From positions 1-37,091 of IMG/VR virus record IMGVR_UViG_3300049783_001518: DNA of 37,091 nt, one strand, 5' to 3'. This DNA is from a virus. The notes under the pieces are model-generated. The model was not told where the DNA came from. It did no database searches and saw only the letters and a list, made by a program, of their open reading frames with translations. The translations under genes and the position numbers were made by a program. Below, in pieces: positions 2,998 through 36,882 of this stretch; the stretch's first letter is position 1; each line of letters starts with the position of its first letter.

Positions 2998-5241
2998 ATG
3001 AGCAAAAACGTATTAATTGTTGAACACAATCCAAATTCATTAGAATATCTTAATGAGAATGTAAGTGTGAAAGCAAATGGTGGTAAGTATCTTCTTGGTG
3101 GTAAGTTCACAGAATTCGATGTAAAAAATCGTAATGATAGAGTTTATACTTGGAATAAATTTAAACCTGCGTTAACTGAACTTAACGAAAGGATTACTCA
3201 AATTGGTGTTTTTGGTGAATTTGATCACCCTGATACCTTTGATACATCTTTAAAAAGTGCTTCCCATATGGTAAAAGAGGCTTTCTATGATGAGAGTTCT
3301 AACAGCATACAAGGGAAGATACAATTATTAACTACATCTTGGGGCAAGGAAGCAAGATCCTTAGTAGATGATGAGTGTCCATTATTTGTTTCATCAAGAG
3401 CGGCGGGAGTTACCGAAGCGAATGGTGAAGTGTCATTAAAAAAATTATTCACATATGACATTGTTGCAGATCCAGGATTTGCATCTGCTCGTATGGAATC
3501 AATTAATGAATCAATGGGTTATTCACCTGATACTAATTTTCGAATTTATGAAATCGGAGATGAGTCAAAAATAAACGAATTATTTGAAATGAATAAAGAC
3601 GATCTAATAACAAAGCAACAATTATCTGAATACTCAGAGCATTTAGTTGAGCAGATTGCTTCCACTAAGAGAAAAGTGAACGAAGCAATGAAGAAAGGTA
3701 ATTTAGAGCCTAAGAAAATGGAAGAGTTATTATCTTTCTATGAAAATAGCCAAAATGATTTCAGTAAAATTACTGAATATTTAAATTACTTAGCTGAAAG
3801 TTTACAACATGTAGTTGTAGAAAACAAAGCATTAAAAAAATCTAACGCTAAGTTGGGTAAAACAACAGAAAAATTAATCAAACATAATGATTATTTAGCT
3901 GAGAATTTAGAAAAAAATATTGAATATTCTGAATATTTAGCTGAGAACGTTGATAAGAATATTGAATATTCTGAATATTTAGCTGAGAACGTTGATAAAT
4001 CAATTCAATATGGTGAATATATTGCTGAGAACGTTGATAGATCTATCGACTACTCTGAATATATCGCTGAAAATTTAGATAAATCTATTGGATTTACTGA
4101 TTATTTATCAGAGAATCTTAATAAATCTATTGAATACACTGAGTACATCGCAGAAAATGTTGATACTAATATCGCATACTCTGAGTACATAGCTGAACAT
4201 CTTGATGATGGTATAGCTTACACGGATTATATCGCTGAGCAAGTTGATAAATCTATTGGTTATTCAAAAATGATTGCAGAAAAATTAAACGAAACAAAAG
4301 TGAACGAAGGTTTCATGGTTGGGGAAGATGATTTCCAATTCCCAATGCCAAATGCAGCAGGGATTGAAGAAGTTGAAGAAGAAGAAGAAGAAGTACCACA
4401 ATTTGACGACAATGGTGAATTGATTGATCAGGTAGATCATGAATTAACTGATGGACTTGAAGGTGAAGAAGATGCTAACTGTCATGTAGTATGTGATGGT
4501 GATGAAGAAGGCGGAGAACCAACAGAAGATGATATCTTAGAACCAGGTGATGAATTAATCGATGATGAGGAAAGCATCGAAGAAACACCAGGATTAGAGG
4601 ACACTGAATTAATTACAGATGATGAAGAACTTGAAGAAAAGTTTTTAGAAGAATCAGTTGAATCAAAAGAGGATTGTGACTGTAATGAAGATGATGAGGA
4701 TTGTGACTGTAATAAAAATAAAGAAACTGACTTATCAATGTCAATTGATAAATTAATAGAAGAAGCTAAAAAACGAAAAGCTTCTGAAACAAACGAACAC
4801 CATTTCTTAAAATTCTTGAACAAAAAACAGATAGATGCGTTCTATGGTTTGGAACAAGATGATCAAGAGGTAGTAGTTGCCCATATAAACGAAAAGGGTA
4901 AATATTATTCAACTAATGATGTATTGAAACTTGTCAACGAAGCGTTGAAAAGTAGAGAAGAATCACTAGAGGCTCGTTTGCTTCGACTAATGCCTGATAC
5001 CCTTAACGAACGTTGGGAGAATATTTCTGAGGCTGCTAAGAATTCAATTCTTAGTCAATCGAAATTACATCCATCAGCGAATTGGAATGAGGATACAATC
5101 GAGCATTTTTGGTTAACTCGTAAATTCCCAATAGTTAACGAAAACCGCGAATTAATTGCAAAAGAAGATAAATTAATCCAAGAGGATAAATTAACTAATG
5201 ATGCTTTTAATGGAATTATGGAAAAATTCAATAGAATTTAA
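2998..5241 (+). CDS. Prohead core protease fused to scaffold (T4 gp21 + gp22-like)
   Basis: The N-terminal part (about residues 25-190) resembles T4 gp21 prohead protease: NRNDRVY, GEFDHP with a likely catalytic His77 (T4 GELNHP), and VSSRA with a likely catalytic Ser132 or Ser133 (T4 VSSRG). The rest is scaffold-like: a coiled-coil region, ten 14-residue repeats (about 296-435), a very acidic stretch containing DCDCNEDDEDCDC, and a helical C-terminal domain. In T4 the protease and scaffold are separate genes. The sequence carries many [ILV]NE tripeptides, e.g. YLNE-N at residue 20, KVNE-A, KINE-L, KLNE-T, KVNE-G and IVNE-N, which I infer are self-cleavage sites. The start at 2998 (MSKNVLIVE) is preferred to 2926 because the putative promoter lies between them. 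Predicted 747 aa. Confidence 0.88.
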   Translation: MSKNVLIVEHNPNSLEYLNENVSVKANGGKYLLGGKFTEFDVKNRNDRVYTWNKFKPALTELNERITQIGVFGEFDHPDTFDTSLKSASHMVKEAFYDESSNSIQGKIQLLTTSWGKEARSLVDDECPLFVSSRAAGVTEANGEVSLKKLFTYDIVADPGFASARMESINESMGYSPDTNFRIYEIGDESKINELFEMNKDDLITKQQLSEYSEHLVEQIASTKRKVNEAMKKGNLEPKKMEELLSFYENSQNDFSKITEYLNYLAESLQHVVVENKALKKSNAKLGKTTEKLIKHNDYLAENLEKNIEYSEYLAENVDKNIEYSEYLAENVDKSIQYGEYIAENVDRSIDYSEYIAENLDKSIGFTDYLSENLNKSIEYTEYIAENVDTNIAYSEYIAEHLDDGIAYTDYIAEQVDKSIGYSKMIAEKLNETKVNEGFMVGEDDFQFPMPNAAGIEEVEEEEEEVPQFDDNGELIDQVDHELTDGLEGEEDANCHVVCDGDEEGGEPTEDDILEPGDELIDDEESIEETPGLEDTELITDDEELEEKFLEESVESKEDCDCNEDDEDCDCNKNKETDLSMSIDKLIEEAKKRKASETNEHHFLKFLNKKQIDAFYGLEQDDQEVVVAHINEKGKYYSTNDVLKLVNEALKSREESLEARLLRLMPDTLNERWENISEAAKNSILSQSKLHPSANWNEDTIEHFWLTRKFPIVNENRELIAKEDKLIQEDKLTNDAFNGIMEKFNRI
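3883..4302 (+). repeat. Ten 42-bp repeats (14-aa YSEYIAENVDKSIE units)
   Basis: Ten consecutive in-frame units of exactly 14 residues, consensus YSEYIAENVDKSIE, lie in the scaffold part of the protease/scaffold protein. Two neighbouring copies around 3930-4000 are nearly identical at DNA level and others have drifted. The spacing of Tyr/Ile/Leu/Val residues suggests a long helical rod or coiled coil. Unit number may set core length, but that is inference. Confidence 0.9.
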
Positions 5242-5329: not shown

Positions 5330-7033
5330 ATGATACAAAATATTAATTTAGAAAAAGCAAAACAAAAGTGGACTCCATTGTTCGAGAACATGGGAGTAAC
5401 TGATGGTGAGCGAATTGATTGGATGTCTGAGTACGCTGAGTACCATTCAATAAATGAAAATGCATATGCTAATTTAGGTAACTTTAATGGTATGGGTGCA
5501 GTAGCAAATCCAGTTGTTTCTGCAATTCCAGGTAATGCACTTGGAACTCCAAACTTTGGAGCAGGAGCAGGATCAGGAGATTACGGTCAACAATTATTAC
5601 CTGTGGCAATGAAAATTGCAGCACAAACTATAGGTTTAGACCTTGTTAGTGTAAAACCAACACCAGGGCCGAAAATTGACCTAATGTACATCGATTTTGC
5701 ATACGATGATAACACAAACGAAAGTAATGAAAGACCACAAGTTTTCGCATTAGATTTCGTTGCATCAAGTGCAGTTGTAAAGACATTCTTAGATGCTGTT
5801 ATAGTTGAAGCAGGAGCGACAAGAAAAGTAGGTGGGTTAACAGAAAGAGTATATCTTTCATTAGCTGACCAAGCAGGAGCAACAGCATCAGGGTATGACC
5901 CAGCAGTAGCACCAGCGGGATCAAAACAATCTTGGGTTGAATTTTTAGGATACTCTCGTATTGATTTAAAACCAATGTTTAGAATTTTCAGACAAGCTAA
6001 CGTAGCAACATCTACAAGTGGTGCGGCATGGGGATTTGATGATGCATTAAATACATTCTTAGCGAATGATATCTTAACAACAGTATTCGAAGGTGGATTT
6101 GTTGATACAGCAACTACAACTTCAGGTACAGTATCAGGAGCTGTTACACTTGAATTAGTGTCTGCTTTAGAGGATCATTTACCAGCATTTGCTGCTAACT
6201 TTGTATCTCATAAAAGCCCTCAAACAAGAGAGCAAGAGGAACAAAACTACCCAGGAATTATTGCTCCAAGAGTACAGTCTAAAACTATCCAAGCGGGTAC
6301 TATCGAAATCTCAACAGCTCTTAAAAGAACTGAGATTGAAGATATCAAAGCTAACTTAGGTATTGACATCGTACAAAAAATGGAATCAATTCTTGTTAAT
6401 GAATTATCTCAAACAATTTCTAAGCAAATTGTAGAGAAGTTATTCGAAATGGGTGATTTAAACAGAGTATCTGCTCCAGGATACACAACGGCAACTGCGG
6501 CTACAACTGTATTTGATTTAAACGTTGATGCGTATTTAGGTGCAACTGCAAGTCCAGGTGGTGAAACATCTCACGCTGTTCAGAGAAAATTAGTAACGAA
6601 GATATTACATGCTTCTAACTACTTGGCAACTGAAGGTCGTGTTGGACCAGCTCAATTCGTTGTAACAAACGGACGTTTAGGTGCAGCTCTAGCTGACATC
6701 ACAGGTTATACTATTAATCCAGTAAAATCTAAAATAAACGCAGCAGGACAATTGTATCCTATGGGAACAATTGGAGACGTACAAATCTACATCGATCCTT
6801 ATATGTTATATAATGATAATCGTATGTTAGTTGGACGTAAGAACAACCCTGACCAACCAGGTATCGTATTCGTACCTTACTTAATGGCTCAGTCTATCAG
6901 TTTATTATCTGAGGCAACATTCGCACCAAGAATGTTATTACGTTCAAGATATGCAATTGCTGAATTAGGATGGTATCCACAAAAACAATATTTAACTGTA
7001 AGAGTTGTAGATACTAATAATATCTTAGCTTAA
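5330..7033 (+). CDS. 23: Major capsid protein (T4 gp23-like)
   Basis: A 567-aa protein resembling T4 gp23, which forms the hexamers of the head shell. The N-terminal part (MIQNINLEKAKQKWTPLFEN, then YAEYHSINENAYANLG) matches the gp23 delta-peptide layout, in which an N-terminal segment is removed by the prohead protease. A cut after I41-N42-E43 is predicted from the [ILV]NE pattern of this phage. The C-terminal part carries features typical of gp23, such as VGRKNNPDQPGIVFVPYL and the final LLRSRYAIAELGWYPQKQYL. It follows the protease/scaffold gene directly and ends at the strong hairpin terminator at 7065, as expected for an abundant late transcript. Base composition is less AT-rich than its neighbours, consistent with high expression. 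Confidence 0.95.
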   Translation: MIQNINLEKAKQKWTPLFENMGVTDGERIDWMSEYAEYHSINENAYANLGNFNGMGAVANPVVSAIPGNALGTPNFGAGAGSGDYGQQLLPVAMKIAAQTIGLDLVSVKPTPGPKIDLMYIDFAYDDNTNESNERPQVFALDFVASSAVVKTFLDAVIVEAGATRKVGGLTERVYLSLADQAGATASGYDPAVAPAGSKQSWVEFLGYSRIDLKPMFRIFRQANVATSTSGAAWGFDDALNTFLANDILTTVFEGGFVDTATTTSGTVSGAVTLELVSALEDHLPAFAANFVSHKSPQTREQEEQNYPGIIAPRVQSKTIQAGTIEISTALKRTEIEDIKANLGIDIVQKMESILVNELSQTISKQIVEKLFEMGDLNRVSAPGYTTATAATTVFDLNVDAYLGATASPGGETSHAVQRKLVTKILHASNYLATEGRVGPAQFVVTNGRLGAALADITGYTINPVKSKINAAGQLYPMGTIGDVQIYIDPYMLYNDNRMLVGRKNNPDQPGIVFVPYLMAQSISLLSEATFAPRMLLRSRYAIAELGWYPQKQYLTVRVVDTNNILA

Positions 7034-26204: not shown

Positions 26205-26747
26205 ATGAAGTATATCTTAGAAAGAAACTCTTTTAATAAGGAGGATATTAGAAAGGCATTGAATACATCCGTTAAATCGGGGGATATTAAAATGAAAATG
26301 TCTCCCGATGAGTTTATTGATGATGTGTTGAATAAATATCATCCTGAATTTGGTACTTTCGAAAGTTTAGTTAAATTTAAGTCTATAACATTATCTTATC
26401 AGGAAAAAATGCACGAATATATACATAAATTCAAAGAATTGGGTATAGATACTTCTAAATTAGAAGCATTATATCCTAAATATAAAGAATATTTAAAATT
26501 TCCCATAGATGAGCCACATGAAGAAGATTATACAATAAATTATCAAGATGAAAGATATTATAGTGATGAAGAAGATCCAACTGAAGAGGATTGGTGGAGA
26601 GAAGATGAAGAAGAGAAAGCACAATATGAGAAAGATTTAGAAGAATGGTATATCGATGATGATAAACATGAATTAGTACGAAATGAATTTAATACCGAAG
26701 TTGTTAGATTATGTGGGATAGCAGAAAAAATTATATTTGGAGAATAA
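26205..26747 (+). CDS. Hypothetical protein, paralog A, candidate internal head protein
   Basis: A 180-aa acidic protein clearly related to the next gene: both share SGDIKM near residue 29, TSKLE-L-P-YKEYLK, PID-P, SEEDPT or DEEDPT followed by WWRED, and EFNTEV near the end. The leader MKYILERNSFNKEDIRKA resembles the MKYI leaders of other proteins here, with I-L-E as a possible cut. No enzyme motif is seen. First gene of a three-gene run with its paralog and the ADP-ribosyltransferase. Confidence 0.65.
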   Translation: MKYILERNSFNKEDIRKALNTSVKSGDIKMKMSPDEFIDDVLNKYHPEFGTFESLVKFKSITLSYQEKMHEYIHKFKELGIDTSKLEALYPKYKEYLKFPIDEPHEEDYTINYQDERYYSDEEDPTEEDWWREDEEEKAQYEKDLEEWYIDDDKHELVRNEFNTEVVRLCGIAEKIIFGE

Positions 26748-26751
26748 TTAT

Positions 26752-27291
26752 ATGAAGTATATTAATGAAAGAGAATTATATAATAAAAGCGACATTGAGA
26801 AAGCGATGGGTAGATCTATCAAATCAGGAGATATTAAAATGAATATAAGTTTTGATGAGTTTGTTAATAAATCACTTAACCTACAACAACCACCAATAGG
26901 TAGTTTCGAGGGTATGGTACAAAATGGATTTATCTCTATGGGGAGTGAAAGGCAAATGGAAGATTTTCTTAATCGATTTAAACAATTGGAGATAGATACT
27001 TCTAAATTAGAAACATTATTTCCTGCGTATAAAGAGTATTTAAAATACCCTATCGATCAACCATATGATGGTGATTATTCAATATATGGTTACGATCAAA
27101 GAAAATATACTAGTGAAGAAGATCCAACGGGAGAAGGTTGGTGGAGAGAAGATTCCGAAGCAAGATTAGAGTATGAAAAGGATTTAGAAGAATGGGAAAT
27201 AAAAACTGATGAACATGAAGTAATAAGAAAGGAATTTAATACTGAGGTAAGACGATTGTGTAAAATGGCAAAAGTAAAATTAGATATGTAA
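26752..27291 (+). CDS. Hypothetical protein, paralog B, candidate internal head protein
   Basis: A 179-aa paralog of the preceding gene, produced by tandem duplication and substantial divergence. The ATG at 26752 (MKYINERELYNKSDIEKA) is preferred to an ATG at 26737, because the latter lies inside the previous gene and would add five residues before the MKYI leader shared with its paralog. The leader has I-N-E at residues 4-6. It ends 2 bases before the ADP-ribosyltransferase gene. Confidence 0.65.
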   Translation: MKYINERELYNKSDIEKAMGRSIKSGDIKMNISFDEFVNKSLNLQQPPIGSFEGMVQNGFISMGSERQMEDFLNRFKQLEIDTSKLETLFPAYKEYLKYPIDQPYDGDYSIYGYDQRKYTSEEDPTGEGWWREDSEARLEYEKDLEEWEIKTDEHEVIRKEFNTEVRRLCKMAKVKLDM

Positions 27292-27293
27292 TA

Positions 27294-27842
27294 ATGAAAT
27301 TCATAAAATCAATAAATGAATATTTAAGCAACCCATCAGTACACATACCTGATGATTTAGCACTTTGGTGTATGAATTTTTATATATCTGAGAGTTACAC
27401 TACCTATGATTATAATAGAATACCAAGTGATGTTGTGGAGGGGTCTAAGAACCTTATTAAAGAACACACGGGAGCTAATTATTTATTCAGAGGATTTGGT
27501 GATGATAAAATTGGTGATATAAAATTCGAACCTGATGTTAGAGGTAGAGGATCTTCTTGGACTTGGGATCACGAAATGGCTTGTGAGTTTTCAAGTAAAT
27601 ACGATCATATCGATGGTAAATATAGTTTAGTAGCAAGTGTTAATATAGACAATTTGAAATATATAATATCTATGGACTTTATAATGGAAAATATTACACG
27701 AAAACAAATTGATCTACTTGATAATGGTAATCATAAAAACTCAATAATAAACTACGAGTCTGAATATGAAGTAATAATCTTTGACTCATTTATTGTTAAA
27801 AAAGAAAGTATTATACAAACAAAAAACGGGGGATTTATTTAA
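27294..27842 (+). CDS. Putative ADP-ribosyltransferase (R-S-E class), Alt-like, possibly packaged in the head
   Basis: A 182-aa protein with the three landmarks of the arginine-type ADP-ribosyltransferase fold: YLFRGFGDD with Arg66, GRGSSWTWDHEMACEFS in the position of the STS motif (Ser87, Ser88, Thr90), and NYESEYEVII with Glu155-x-Glu157 in the ExE position. Such enzymes transfer ADP-ribose from NAD to Arg of target proteins. In T4, Alt is packaged in the head and injected to modify host RNA polymerase. The leader MKFIKSINEYLS with I-N-E at residues 7-9 suggests the same delivery here. It is far smaller than Alt (about 680 aa) and closer in size to T4 ModA. The target is unknown. It ends exactly where the convergent minus operon ends. 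Confidence 0.65.
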   Translation: MKFIKSINEYLSNPSVHIPDDLALWCMNFYISESYTTYDYNRIPSDVVEGSKNLIKEHTGANYLFRGFGDDKIGDIKFEPDVRGRGSSWTWDHEMACEFSSKYDHIDGKYSLVASVNIDNLKYIISMDFIMENITRKQIDLLDNGNHKNSIINYESEYEVIIFDSFIVKKESIIQTKNGGFI

Positions 27843-30346: not shown

Positions 30347-33300
30347 ATGGTAAATAACGAAAAGAAAATAGTATGGACTACTAAAAAAGTACAAGAAGCA
30401 GCACAAAAACTAAATGATGGGTACATACTTCCTAATTATGAAATCCCCTTTTTCGAAAAAACAGTTGGACTTCGCAAAAAAAGTATATCTTTTGGATTTA
30501 CAGGAAACGAGTACGATGAATATGTTAAATGTAAATTAGATGTAACATATTTTGCTAACAATTATTGTTTCATTAAAGTGGAAGATGGTTCATTTAAATT
30601 AATGAATATTCGTGATTATCAGTATGATATATTAGATTTATATGATAATAATAAATATAGTATATTAATGGCATCTCGTCAAGTAGGTAAAACAATAATG
30701 GCATCTATTTACATTCTACATTTTATGCTATTCAATAACACCAAAAATGTGTTATTGGCGGCGAATATATTAGATACATCAAAGGAGGTATTGGGTAAAA
30801 TTAGAGAGATTTATAGCTATTTACCATTCTTCTTACAACAAGGAATTGATGTGTGGTCTGTAACTCAAATGAAATTCCAAAATGGTTGTAGGGCTAAAGC
30901 ATTTGCAATGACAAAAACAGCATCTATTGGTAATGCTGCCGATTTAGTATATGTAGATGAGTTTGCTTATATAAACAATAGTGTTGCTAATAAATTCTAT
31001 AAATCTATATTCCCGACATTAGCGAGTATAGAAAATTCTAAAATGATCATAACATCAACACCCAATGGATTTAATTTATTCCACAAACTATTGACTGATT
31101 CTGAAAGAGAAGATACTGACCCACTTAAAAATAACTTTGGTAGTTTAAGGGTATATTGGCATCAAGTAAAAGGTCGTAATGTGACTTATTTAAAAATAAA
31201 TCCACATTTATTACCTCAATTCGGATTAACTTTAGATGAGGTGATGAAACAATGTAATGAGAAATATAATCCTAATGGTAAAGTAACAAGCAATGAGATA
31301 CCTATTGTAGAATTGAAATATGATAGCGATAAAGGATTACCAATTATAAATATACAGAATAGTGAAAAATTAACATTTGAGGTTATTGGAATGACTGAGT
31401 TCATTAATAATAATGATGAGGTAGTTCACTGTACGAGTATATCAAGTGTATCTACTTGGAAAATAGACACAACTAAAGATATAGGTGGTGAAGATAACTT
31501 TAATAGTGAATTTGATCTTAGATTTTCATCAGGTAGTAAAAATGTTCTATCAGAAACTACAATTGAAAGATTAATGGAGAATAAAAAACCATTTAACCAT
31601 TTAAAGCATGATGTATTTAAAAAACTTCGGTGGGATTACTCCGCCTTGAAGTTCGTAGAAGGATTTGATGAAAATATCCGAAAAAAGATACATGTTATGT
31701 TATCTATTGATATATCCGAGGGGCTTGGGCAAGATTATAGTGTTATAAATATGTTTAAATTAGACTATAAATCAATGGATCTAATTAATGAGCAAAAAGA
31801 TACCTATCAGACATTATCTGACTTCTTCCAATTAATACAATTTGGGATGTTTAGAACTAATATAGTAAGCCATGCTCAGTTAGCAGAAATGGCATACTTA
31901 TTAATATTTGAATTTTTTGACCCCGATCAGGTGAAAGTTACGGTTGAGTATAATAATGATGGTAAAGCTTTTTTCTCTGAAATTAAAAATGTATTTGAAA
32001 ATGATAATGATTATTCAGGTTATGTTATGTTGAAATTTAAGCATAGATTGGATGCGATAAATAAAAGTTATGGGTTAAAAGTAGGAACACTTAAAAATCA
32101 ATATGTTAAAGACTATCAAGCTCGTATGGAGAACCAAGATTTTATCATTTGTAATGAAGTAAATATTAAAGAGGTTGGTACATTTATAAAACACACAACC
32201 ACTGCAGGTAACACTGTATATAAAGGTGATGGTTCTTGTGATGATTGTGTTGTGCCAGATACATTGATAACAACAAATGGTGGGATTAAAATGATTAAAG
32301 ATATTAATGTAGGTGATATGGTGTTGACACACAAAGGTAGGTATAGAAAAGTATTGAAAGTTGGTAATAGACATAGTGATTATATTTATAAAATTAAATC
32401 AAATAATAAATTAGATTTATCTATAACAAACAATCATGAATTATTTTTATTTGAGAAAAAAAATTACACCAATAAAGATAGAAAGTTGAAGTTTTTAAAG
32501 GAACAAAAATGGTTATCTATTGATGATGGTATAGATATAAAGAAACATTATACTGCATTTATTCCAAATCAAGAAGTAAAAAATCTTAATTATATTGATT
32601 TATATGAATATTGTGATAAGAAAAAATTTATAATAAAAAATAAAAAAATATATTCGATTATAAATGGAAATATTAACCATTTGAATCCAACTCAAAATCC
32701 TATTAATAGATATTTAGAAATAGATAATGATATGTGTTATATATTTGGTTATTATTTAGCAGAAGGATCAAGAAATGAACACCAAATAAATTTTAGTAGT
32801 CATATAAACGAAAGATTATTACGTAAAAAAGTTAATGATATTTTCATTAACTTAGGGCTATTTCCTTTTAAAACTAATGGATTACCAAGAAATTCAGGTA
32901 GAATAACCATATCATCAAAAATATTATCTAACTTCTTTAAGGTCTTTGGTAAAAGTGATGATAAGAAATTGCCTAATTTTTGTAATTTCTTACCCGATGA
33001 TAAGTTAAGAAATATTATATATGGATATTTTATGGGAGATGGTGGGTTCTCACAAAAGGGTATTAGATCATTTAGTATTTCCCCATCTATATCATTTTTT
33101 ATATATGAATCTTTAGTTAAATTAGGATATAAACCAAGTTTAAAAAAACAAAATCAAACTAAAAAAACAACATACCCAAATAGTAAAAAATATGGATATG
33201 TTGTGAACGTAAATGATTATGATAAAAATGATATATTATCTTATATGGAGGAGAGTATTCTTATAGATAAAAATATAGAATATCCATTAAATGTATCGGA

Positions 33301-33688
33301 TAAAAAATCATATCAAAAATCCATAGATAATTATTTAATTGGTAAAATCAGAAATATAGAAAAGATTGAATATAATGATATTGTATATAATTTAGAAGTT
33401 GATGATGATAATAGCTATGTAGCGAATGGAGTTATTGTACATAATTGTGCAATGACGCTTGTTAATATGAGTCAAGGTTGGAAAAGTGTTGGGTTTAAAG
33501 AAATGTTAGCTGATTATCACCAAGAAAATGGTAGAGAAGTTATTAAAAACTTAGTTAATAGTATTCTTAATAAGGATATGAGAGTTGGTACAGATTATAC
33601 CTCTTTTTTCAATGCTAAAAATAATTTAAATAAAAATAGTGCTATTGGTAGAATTGGTGGTAAAATAGACGTTAAAAATTTATTCTAA
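30347..33688 (+). CDS. 17: Terminase large subunit (T4 gp17-like), interrupted by an intein
   Basis: A 1113-aa precursor. The exteins form a 713-aa gp17-like packaging motor. ATPase: Walker A SRQVGKT (110-116), Walker B YVDEF (Asp204, Glu205) and coupling motif ITSTPNG. Nuclease: LSIDISEG with Asp455, VTVEYNNDG with Glu534, and GDGSCDD with Asp632/Asp633. The intein occupies residues 634-1033, between this last Asp pair and CAMTLVNM; after splicing the line reads SCDD-CAMT. T4 gp17 is 610 aa, so the spliced protein is about 100 residues longer, with an extra segment near residues 280-340. It translocates DNA into the prohead and cuts concatemers. It stands alone on the plus strand rather than beside the other head genes. 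Confidence 0.95.
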   Translation: MVNNEKKIVWTTKKVQEAAQKLNDGYILPNYEIPFFEKTVGLRKKSISFGFTGNEYDEYVKCKLDVTYFANNYCFIKVEDGSFKLMNIRDYQYDILDLYDNNKYSILMASRQVGKTIMASIYILHFMLFNNTKNVLLAANILDTSKEVLGKIREIYSYLPFFLQQGIDVWSVTQMKFQNGCRAKAFAMTKTASIGNAADLVYVDEFAYINNSVANKFYKSIFPTLASIENSKMIITSTPNGFNLFHKLLTDSEREDTDPLKNNFGSLRVYWHQVKGRNVTYLKINPHLLPQFGLTLDEVMKQCNEKYNPNGKVTSNEIPIVELKYDSDKGLPIINIQNSEKLTFEVIGMTEFINNNDEVVHCTSISSVSTWKIDTTKDIGGEDNFNSEFDLRFSSGSKNVLSETTIERLMENKKPFNHLKHDVFKKLRWDYSALKFVEGFDENIRKKIHVMLSIDISEGLGQDYSVINMFKLDYKSMDLINEQKDTYQTLSDFFQLIQFGMFRTNIVSHAQLAEMAYLLIFEFFDPDQVKVTVEYNNDGKAFFSEIKNVFENDNDYSGYVMLKFKHRLDAINKSYGLKVGTLKNQYVKDYQARMENQDFIICNEVNIKEVGTFIKHTTTAGNTVYKGDGSCDDCVVPDTLITTNGGIKMIKDINVGDMVLTHKGRYRKVLKVGNRHSDYIYKIKSNNKLDLSITNNHELFLFEKKNYTNKDRKLKFLKEQKWLSIDDGIDIKKHYTAFIPNQEVKNLNYIDLYEYCDKKKFIIKNKKIYSIINGNINHLNPTQNPINRYLEIDNDMCYIFGYYLAEGSRNEHQINFSSHINERLLRKKVNDIFINLGLFPFKTNGLPRNSGRITISSKILSNFFKVFGKSDDKKLPNFCNFLPDDKLRNIIYGYFMGDGGFSQKGIRSFSISPSISFFIYESLVKLGYKPSLKKQNQTKKTTYPNSKKYGYVVNVNDYDKNDILSYMEESILIDKNIEYPLNVSDKKSYQKSIDNYLIGKIRNIEKIEYNDIVYNLEVDDDNSYVANGVIVHNCAMTLVNMSQGWKSVGFKEMLADYHQENGREVIKNLVNSILNKDMRVGTDYTSFFNAKNNLNKNSAIGRIGGKIDVKNLF
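32246..33445 (+). mobile_element. Intein with LAGLIDADG homing endonuclease in terminase (400 aa)
   Basis: The N-terminal splicing block begins with Cys1 (CVVPDTLITTNGGIKMIKDI) and is followed by VGDMVLTHKGRYRKVLKV; a block B-like TNNHELFLF comes near residue 67. The C-terminal block ends VANGVIVHN with the terminal His-Asn, followed by Cys+1 of the extein. Two dodecapeptide motifs, IFGYYLAEGS and IIYGYFMGDGG, mark a two-motif LAGLIDADG endonuclease. All splicing residues seen are intact, so splicing should be active. The DNA is more AT-rich than the exteins, consistent with separate origin. Confidence 0.93.
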
Positions 33689-35832: not shown

Positions 35833-35886
35833 ATGAATATAATTAGACTTTGGACTATTATGTGTTTTTATTTTACTATATATAAT

Positions 35887-36882
35887 ATGAAAATGGGTTA
35901 TATGTACGAATTACATTGTCCACTAAATGATACAACTATGTATATTGGACAAACATCTAAAAGCTTAAAAGGTAGACTTAGGCAACATATATCAAAAACC
36001 AAACTTAAAATTGAAAGGAATAAATTTCTTTCTAAAAAAGATACGTGGATAAATAATTTAATTCAATTATAAATAGAAAATGATATTAAAATAATTGAAA
36101 TAGAAAGCTGTAATTTAAAATCAATAAATGAAAGAGAAGTATATTGGATATCTGAATATAATAAAAATGGATATGAACTTACTAATACAACATCAGGTGG
36201 ACACCAATGTAGGGGATATATACTTAGACCAATGAGTTTAGAAACAAAAAAGAAAATAAGTGAAGGTATAAAGAATTCAGCATCTTATCAAAAAATAATT
36301 AAGAGCGAGTGGAATAAAAAAAGAGCATCGAAATGGTCTAAAAAATATTGGAGAGAAAACAGAGAAGAAAGAATGTTAATTTATACTAACGAATATAGAA
36401 ATAATATAAGTGAAATGGTAGAGGGTTCTAATAACCCCTTTTATGGTAAAACTCACTCTATTGAATCTAAAAGTAAAATGAGTGAATCTAAAAGGGGTAT
36501 TTATGATGGTGAGGGTAATCCTTTCCATGATAAAACTCACACCAACGAATCTAAAAGTAAAATATCGGAAAAATTAAAAATGAAACCTAAAAAATTGATA
36601 TTAATATATAATTTGGATATGAATTTTATAAAAGAATGTGATATATATACTGCTATGGAATATTTAAAATGTAATACATCTGCTAATTTATATAGAAAAA
36701 TAGATTCAGGTAGTTTATATAAAAAACATTATTTAAAATATAAAATTCATTCTAAAAAATTATATAAAAAAGATTTTAATTTAAATGAATTGAAAGGTAG
36801 TGTGGGTGAAGTTGGGTATCGGAAAACATCTATAAAATATAAAATACCAAGATCGACACTTAAACGATGGTTAATTTCATGA
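35887..36882 (+). pseudogene. GIY-YIG homing endonuclease interrupted by one in-frame TAA
   Basis: The reading frame starts at ATG 35887 (MKMGYMYELHC). It has the GIY-YIG core (GYMYELHCPL, then MYIGQT), followed by LKGRLRQHI with the expected Arg. TAA at 36070-36072 stops it after residue 61. The same frame then continues without another stop to 36882 and contains the rest of the nuclease domain (SINEREVYWISEYN, TNTTSGGH), two NUMOD3-like units (NPFYGKTHSIESKSKMSESK and NPFHDKTHTNESKSKISEKL) and a NUMOD1-like C-terminus (PRSTLKRWL). Total 331 codons. One substitution would restore it. It is either a recently inactivated gene, two split genes, or a sequencing error. The C-terminal part could start at 36232 but would lack the catalytic core. 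Confidence 0.8.

Follow-up and report, generated by a model that had tools for sequence, protein, structure and literature searches.

In bacteriophage T4, ModA and ModB are early enzymes, made after infection, with ADP-ribosyltransferase (ART) activity. The T4 enzyme Alt loses an N-terminal propeptide at an L/I-X-E sequence, is packaged in the head and is injected together with the DNA (PMC9026906). Cleavage after L/I-X-E is the work of the T4 protease gp21, and the first 10 residues of the internal protein IPIII suffice for head targeting (PMC9026906). More than 40% of jumbo phages are reported to carry ARTs, and the packaging of ARTs in the head has been suggested to be a general strategy (PMC9503650).

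The gene described here (27294-27842, plus strand) lies in a 37,091-nucleotide stretch of viral DNA, referred to below as the window, and is annotated as an ART gene on the basis of a homolog, an ART profile score and an ART fold model. We read its 182-aa product, P0001, with a probability of about 0.72, as a small arginine mono-ART that is packaged in the head by means of an N-terminal leader and, once injected, modifies host proteins at an early stage. If this is correct, P0001 would be a very small effector delivered by injection, ModA-sized and equipped with the leader of an internal protein; curated families and PHROGs miss it.

The locus and its phage

The window, a virus record of 37 kb, contains a T4-type portal, a protease/scaffold-like fusion, a major capsid protein and an intein-bearing terminase. 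The major capsid protein (5330-7033, plus strand) matches PHROG 138 (major head protein) and shows 58% identity to its counterpart in LR745206 (634 kb) and 48-58% identity to those of other genomes of 636-735 kb. Al-Shayeb et al. assign these genomes to the Mahaphage clade, whose members of >634 kb have predicted Bacteroidetes hosts (PMC7162821). By its capsid protein the window falls within the Mahaphage group, and the Bacteroidetes host named in the preliminary description is in keeping with this assignment.

A T4-type head maturation protease and a scaffold-like part are encoded in one ORF (2998-5241, plus strand; PHROG 207, E 3e-29). The sequence SINE-S at 3499-3510 marks the protease-scaffold boundary and is conserved in W01-W05, and the scaffold-like part contains a run of [YI][LI][AS]E repeats with ten presumed cleavage sites of the YLAEN type, mostly 14 aa apart. 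In the capsid protein a presumed propeptide site, HSINE-N, is located at 5447-5458, and the corresponding sequence is [IML]-x-E-N in five huge phages.

P0001 starts 2 nt past the stop codon of the upstream gene. The two co-directional genes that precede it, one of unassigned function with an MKYILERN start (26205-26747, plus strand) and its paralog with an MKYINE start immediately 5' of the ART gene (26752-27291, plus strand), both match a single gene of the contig L009, with 52% and 45% identity, respectively; the acidic gene is thus tandemly duplicated at 26205-27291 and present as a single copy in L009. This close syntenic relative keeps the flanking genes (54-95% identical) with one copy of the duplicated gene and without the ART, and P0001 is therefore an accessory gene.

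The window terminase (30347-33688) carries its intein at approximately residues 634-1034, at a site other than the L009 insertion. In L009 (3129-6984) the terminase gene is broken at the P-loop into two ORFs, which flank an independent endonuclease-like ORF (3685-4728); the first piece ends N-intein-like and the second opens C-intein-like, ending HN, an arrangement that resembles a fractured gene in which the intein is split. Two ORFs of the window (35833-36072 and 36232-36882) jointly match one 359-aa ORF of L009 (8207-9286) and are apparently a homing endonuclease that is broken in the window.

Catalytic motifs, relatives and fold of P0001

The reading frame of P0001, its leader MKFIKSINE and the segments F65-R66-G67, S87-S88-W89-T90-W91 and E155-S156-E157-Y158-E159 are all present at the positions given; they include the motifs named in the preliminary description. 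The predicted NAD-binding Arg66 of F-R-G (27489-27491, plus strand) and the S-x-T motif S88-W89-T90 (27555-27563, plus strand) are invariant in 32 aligned sequences; the search pattern used to collect relatives included R-G and S-W-T. The glutamate pair was not part of that pattern. Alignment A1, composed of P0001 and 12 domains, shows no variation at R66, G67, S88, W89, T90, A96 and E159 and very little at E157. P0001 thus has the three sequence features expected of the R-S-E ART superfamily, i.e., an Arg on the first strand, S-x-S/T on the second strand and a Glu preceded two residues earlier by Glu or Gln.

The catalytic pair had been described earlier as E155-S-E157, which is the wrong register. 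Position 155 is a Thr in the homolog L295, which retains E157 and E159, and since E159 is also invariant in A1, we assign E159 as the predicted catalytic Glu and E157 as the specificity Glu, both in the segment E157-Y158-E159 (27762-27770, plus strand). The E157A mutant proposed previously would consequently miss the catalytic residue. Given this E-x-E motif, P0001 is probably specific for arginine.

On its own, a loose R-S-E motif is weak evidence for an ART; it turns up in 3.6% of P0001 shuffles, and 39 of the 1,201 huge-phage proteins with lengths of 140-240 aa contain it. Such frequencies, together with the absence of any match to a curated family, would be in keeping with coincidental motifs in a protein that is not an ART. 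The strict pattern [FY]RG..S-x-T..A..F..E-x-E-V, however, is found in only 4 of 200,000 shuffles and in none of 4,541 proteins from five huge phages, and it is kept in the homolog; coincidence is further opposed by a profile score on par with those of proven ARTs and by the fold model, both presented below, and we regard it as very improbable.

P0001 has no match in Pfam, PHROG, NCBIfam or PADLOC (defence systems) and no direct sequence match in the PDB, and direct searches found nothing in viral contigs, phages or the five Mahaphage genomes. Relatives were sought in viral contigs with degenerate DNA patterns for R-G..S-W-T..D/N..A..F. Many of the 88-nt pattern matches were out of frame and were discarded, which left 49 unique in-frame proteins, 36 of them with a downstream E-x-E[VIFL] that lies outside the pattern. 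One of these, L295:5463-6047, is a true homolog (39% identity over 168 aa, E 3e-37 in the set of 49) that keeps the R, SWT and E-x-E motifs plus conserved flanks. The DNA polymerase B of the L295 contig has its best matches in crAss-like phages, and the pair therefore probably spans two phage lineages. The family alignment A2 retrieved nothing from genome_contigs and L295 alone again from viral_contigs, and no additional relative was found with two further DNA patterns. In another phage contig, L197, two paralogous ART-like genes (317 and 330 aa) are adjacent.

A profile of 30 phage ART domains, built without P0001 and L295, assigns 30.8 bits to L295, 28.5 to T4 ModB, 26.4 to P0001 and 18.9 to T4 ModA, the next best score among ~4,600 huge-phage proteins being 9.9. 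ModA and ModB are proven ARTs that stand outside the pattern selection, which argues that the profile describes ARTs; the set was chosen by P0001's own R-G..S-W-T..A..F motifs, and is to that extent not fully independent evidence. Several profile members match the Pfam families DRAT, ART or ADPrib_exo_Tox, one of them above the curated cut-off. Outside the motifs the evidence is weak: the C-terminal part of the profile alone ranks P0001 at 67 of 5,001 against shuffles, which is marginal. In the PDB, the A1 profile finds the arginine ART Vis (4xzj) with E 9e-9. The two-member profile of P0001 and L295 found no ART in the PDB, and a weak sortase match (E 0.009) was taken as chance.

From the single sequence of P0001 no usable fold was obtained (pLDDT 33.5). 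The model computed from a 32-row alignment (pLDDT 75.4, pTM 0.69) has an ART fold with the split β-sheet, and its neighbors are ART-superfamily enzymes; the rows of the alignment are pattern-selected ARTs, and the result is in part circular. Foldseek returned weak matches only from the PDB, with the ART EcPltA on top (E 0.09). After realignment with VIA, the best PDB chains have Z values of 5-7.2, all below 8, and comprise KptA (7.2), PltA, TreX, Scabin (6.1) and other ART-superfamily enzymes. The best fold match in BFVD is the phiN3 member of phrog_27460 (E 2.6e-5). The earlier identification of P0001 as an R-S-E ART is well supported by the homolog, the profile scores, the Pfam matches of profile members, the match to Vis and the fold model, and sequence and model together make this identity very probable.

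KptA is the best structural match, the DNA-modifying Scabin is among the neighbors, and some viral ARTs may destroy NAD (PMC9503650), all of which would suit an NAD glycohydrolase/NADase, or an enzyme whose substrate is a nucleic acid or small molecule and not a protein. Against this, the combination of Arg, S-x-T and E-x-E is typical of arginine mono-ARTs, the A1 profile leads to the arginine ART Vis, and the protein-modifying ModA and ModB score alike with P0001. A non-protein substrate is accordingly an unlikely alternative to protein modification.

A presumed capsid-targeting leader

The N-terminal peptide of P0001, MKFIKSINEYLSNP, begins with the leader MKFIKSINE (27294-27320, plus strand), a presumed capsid-targeting sequence that, by the T4 rule L/I-X-E, would be cleaved after E9 (I-N-E). 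This is an N-terminal leader of ~10 aa with a terminal L/I-X-E (MKFIKSI-N-E9), as expected of such sequences. The S-I-N-E of the leader recurs in the capsid protein (HSINEN) and the protease (SINES) of the same phage, and the capsid and protease sites are conserved as [ILMV]-x-E across five relatives. The phage thus encodes a gp21-like protease (PHROG 207) with a matching site in its other presumed substrates.

Leaders were defined by an M[KR]-x-[ILV] start plus a site at positions 7-14, and were collected from five huge phages and the window. The resulting 273 leader proteins have mature parts that fall into 238 unrelated clusters. A site follows such starts in 29-64% of cases in the five genomes, compared with ~20% at internal pseudo-starts; in the window it follows three of eight starts. 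Glu 9, where P0001 has its site, is also the commonest site position in huge-phage leaders.

Taken alone the P0001 leader is not strong evidence, as a comparable site also follows ~20% of internal pseudo-starts. This background frequency, and a size and profile score that match those of the post-infection T4 enzymes ModA and ModB, would fit an ART that is synthesized within the infected cell once the genome has been injected, with a leader that is incidental or otherwise used. The homolog L295, however, although only 39% identical to P0001, has its own VNE-S leader: its N-terminus, MSKDIRKMIDKVKNFKQFVNES, includes a leader with FVNES at its end, and an unrelated neighbor gene has a leader that matches it with 65% identity over 23 aa. 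Two other small ARTs likewise pair an ART with a start resembling a capsid-targeting sequence, L278 (MRILEVISEA) and L316 (MKFLEFINEN), the latter in a structural gene cluster among tail and terminase genes, and the I-N-E of P0001 is the phage's own consensus site. Synthesis in the infected cell therefore appears improbable as the mode of delivery. The head-packaging leader postulated in the preliminary description is supported by comparison, i.e., by the I-N-E sites that this phage has in its capsid protein and its protease, by modular leaders on >200 proteins and by the independent leader of L295, and from these sequences we consider packaging of P0001 in the head likely.

For P0001 as a head-packaged ART, we infer the following course from expression to the modification of a target. 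P0001 would be made late in infection, and the leader MKFIKSINE would dock it into the prohead core, where the phage's gp21-like protease would cleave after E9 to yield a 173-aa enzyme. Ejected into the host together with the DNA, this enzyme would use NAD for the early ADP-ribosylation, predicted to be on arginine, of one or more host proteins, e.g., components of transcription, translation or defence.

In five Mahaphage genomes (L011-L168; e.g., LR745206 and LR756502) a common leader, MK[YHF][LI]K..[FY]..FNE-S, is found on dozens to ~100 unrelated proteins per genome. These proteins are often encoded in tandem gene clusters, and NUDIX, methyltransferase, LRR and lysozyme-like proteins are among them. 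A limited search of the open-access literature found no prior description of this leader set. Whether Mahaphages inject, along with their DNA, a broad and fast-exchanging effector cargo that includes small ARTs and is marked by a common capsid-targeting leader is a proposition that we consider evenly balanced. The leader offers a sequence rule for predicting injection among the many uncharacterised proteins that the largest phages encode.

Comparison with known phage and cellular systems

The likeness to T4 Alt drawn in the preliminary description holds for the idea of delivery and does not extend to ancestry. ART chemistry, removal of a propeptide at L/I-X-E and injection are all known for Alt and predicted for P0001. 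Alt is, however, several times larger (604 aa in the homolog compared) and has a propeptide of 7 aa, whereas P0001 has 182 aa and is not detectably homologous to the catalytic domain of Alt (hhalign probability 0.26%). A tblastn match to Thanatos-1 Alt (E 0.09) was rejected, as it aligns to Alt residues 315-365, outside the catalytic domain. By these sequence comparisons P0001 is outside the Alt family.

By size and profile score the closest proven relatives of P0001 are T4 ModA and ModB, which at ~200 aa share with it the order R..S-x-T..E-x-E and a comparable score to the same ART profile. E163-Q-E165 of ModA aligns with E157-Y-E159 of P0001. A direct hhalign comparison of ModA and ModB with the two-member family is not significant (6%), and both sides match the same third profile.

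Vis (PDB code 4xzj), to which the ART alignment that includes P0001 gives its best sequence match in the PDB, is a cellular enzyme, of which the ART domain alone was compared. The members of phrog_27460 (proteins of phiM7, phiN3 and a Vibrio phage, ~170 aa, function unassigned) are stand-alone proteins with the same ART motifs as P0001, but they share only ~20% identity with it, and L200 starts MFKITAKE, with no obvious leader.

With respect to the leader, P0001 resembles the T4 internal proteins IPI-IPIII, in which a short basic-hydrophobic N-terminal leader with an L/I-X-E end is found on otherwise unrelated small proteins. IPI, however, is an anti-restriction inhibitor and not an ART, and the leader set of the huge phages amounts to dozens of proteins per genome. 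Packaged ARTs, exemplified by T4 Alt, and jumbo-phage ARTs are already known, and the broader Mahaphage leader set is the more novel part.
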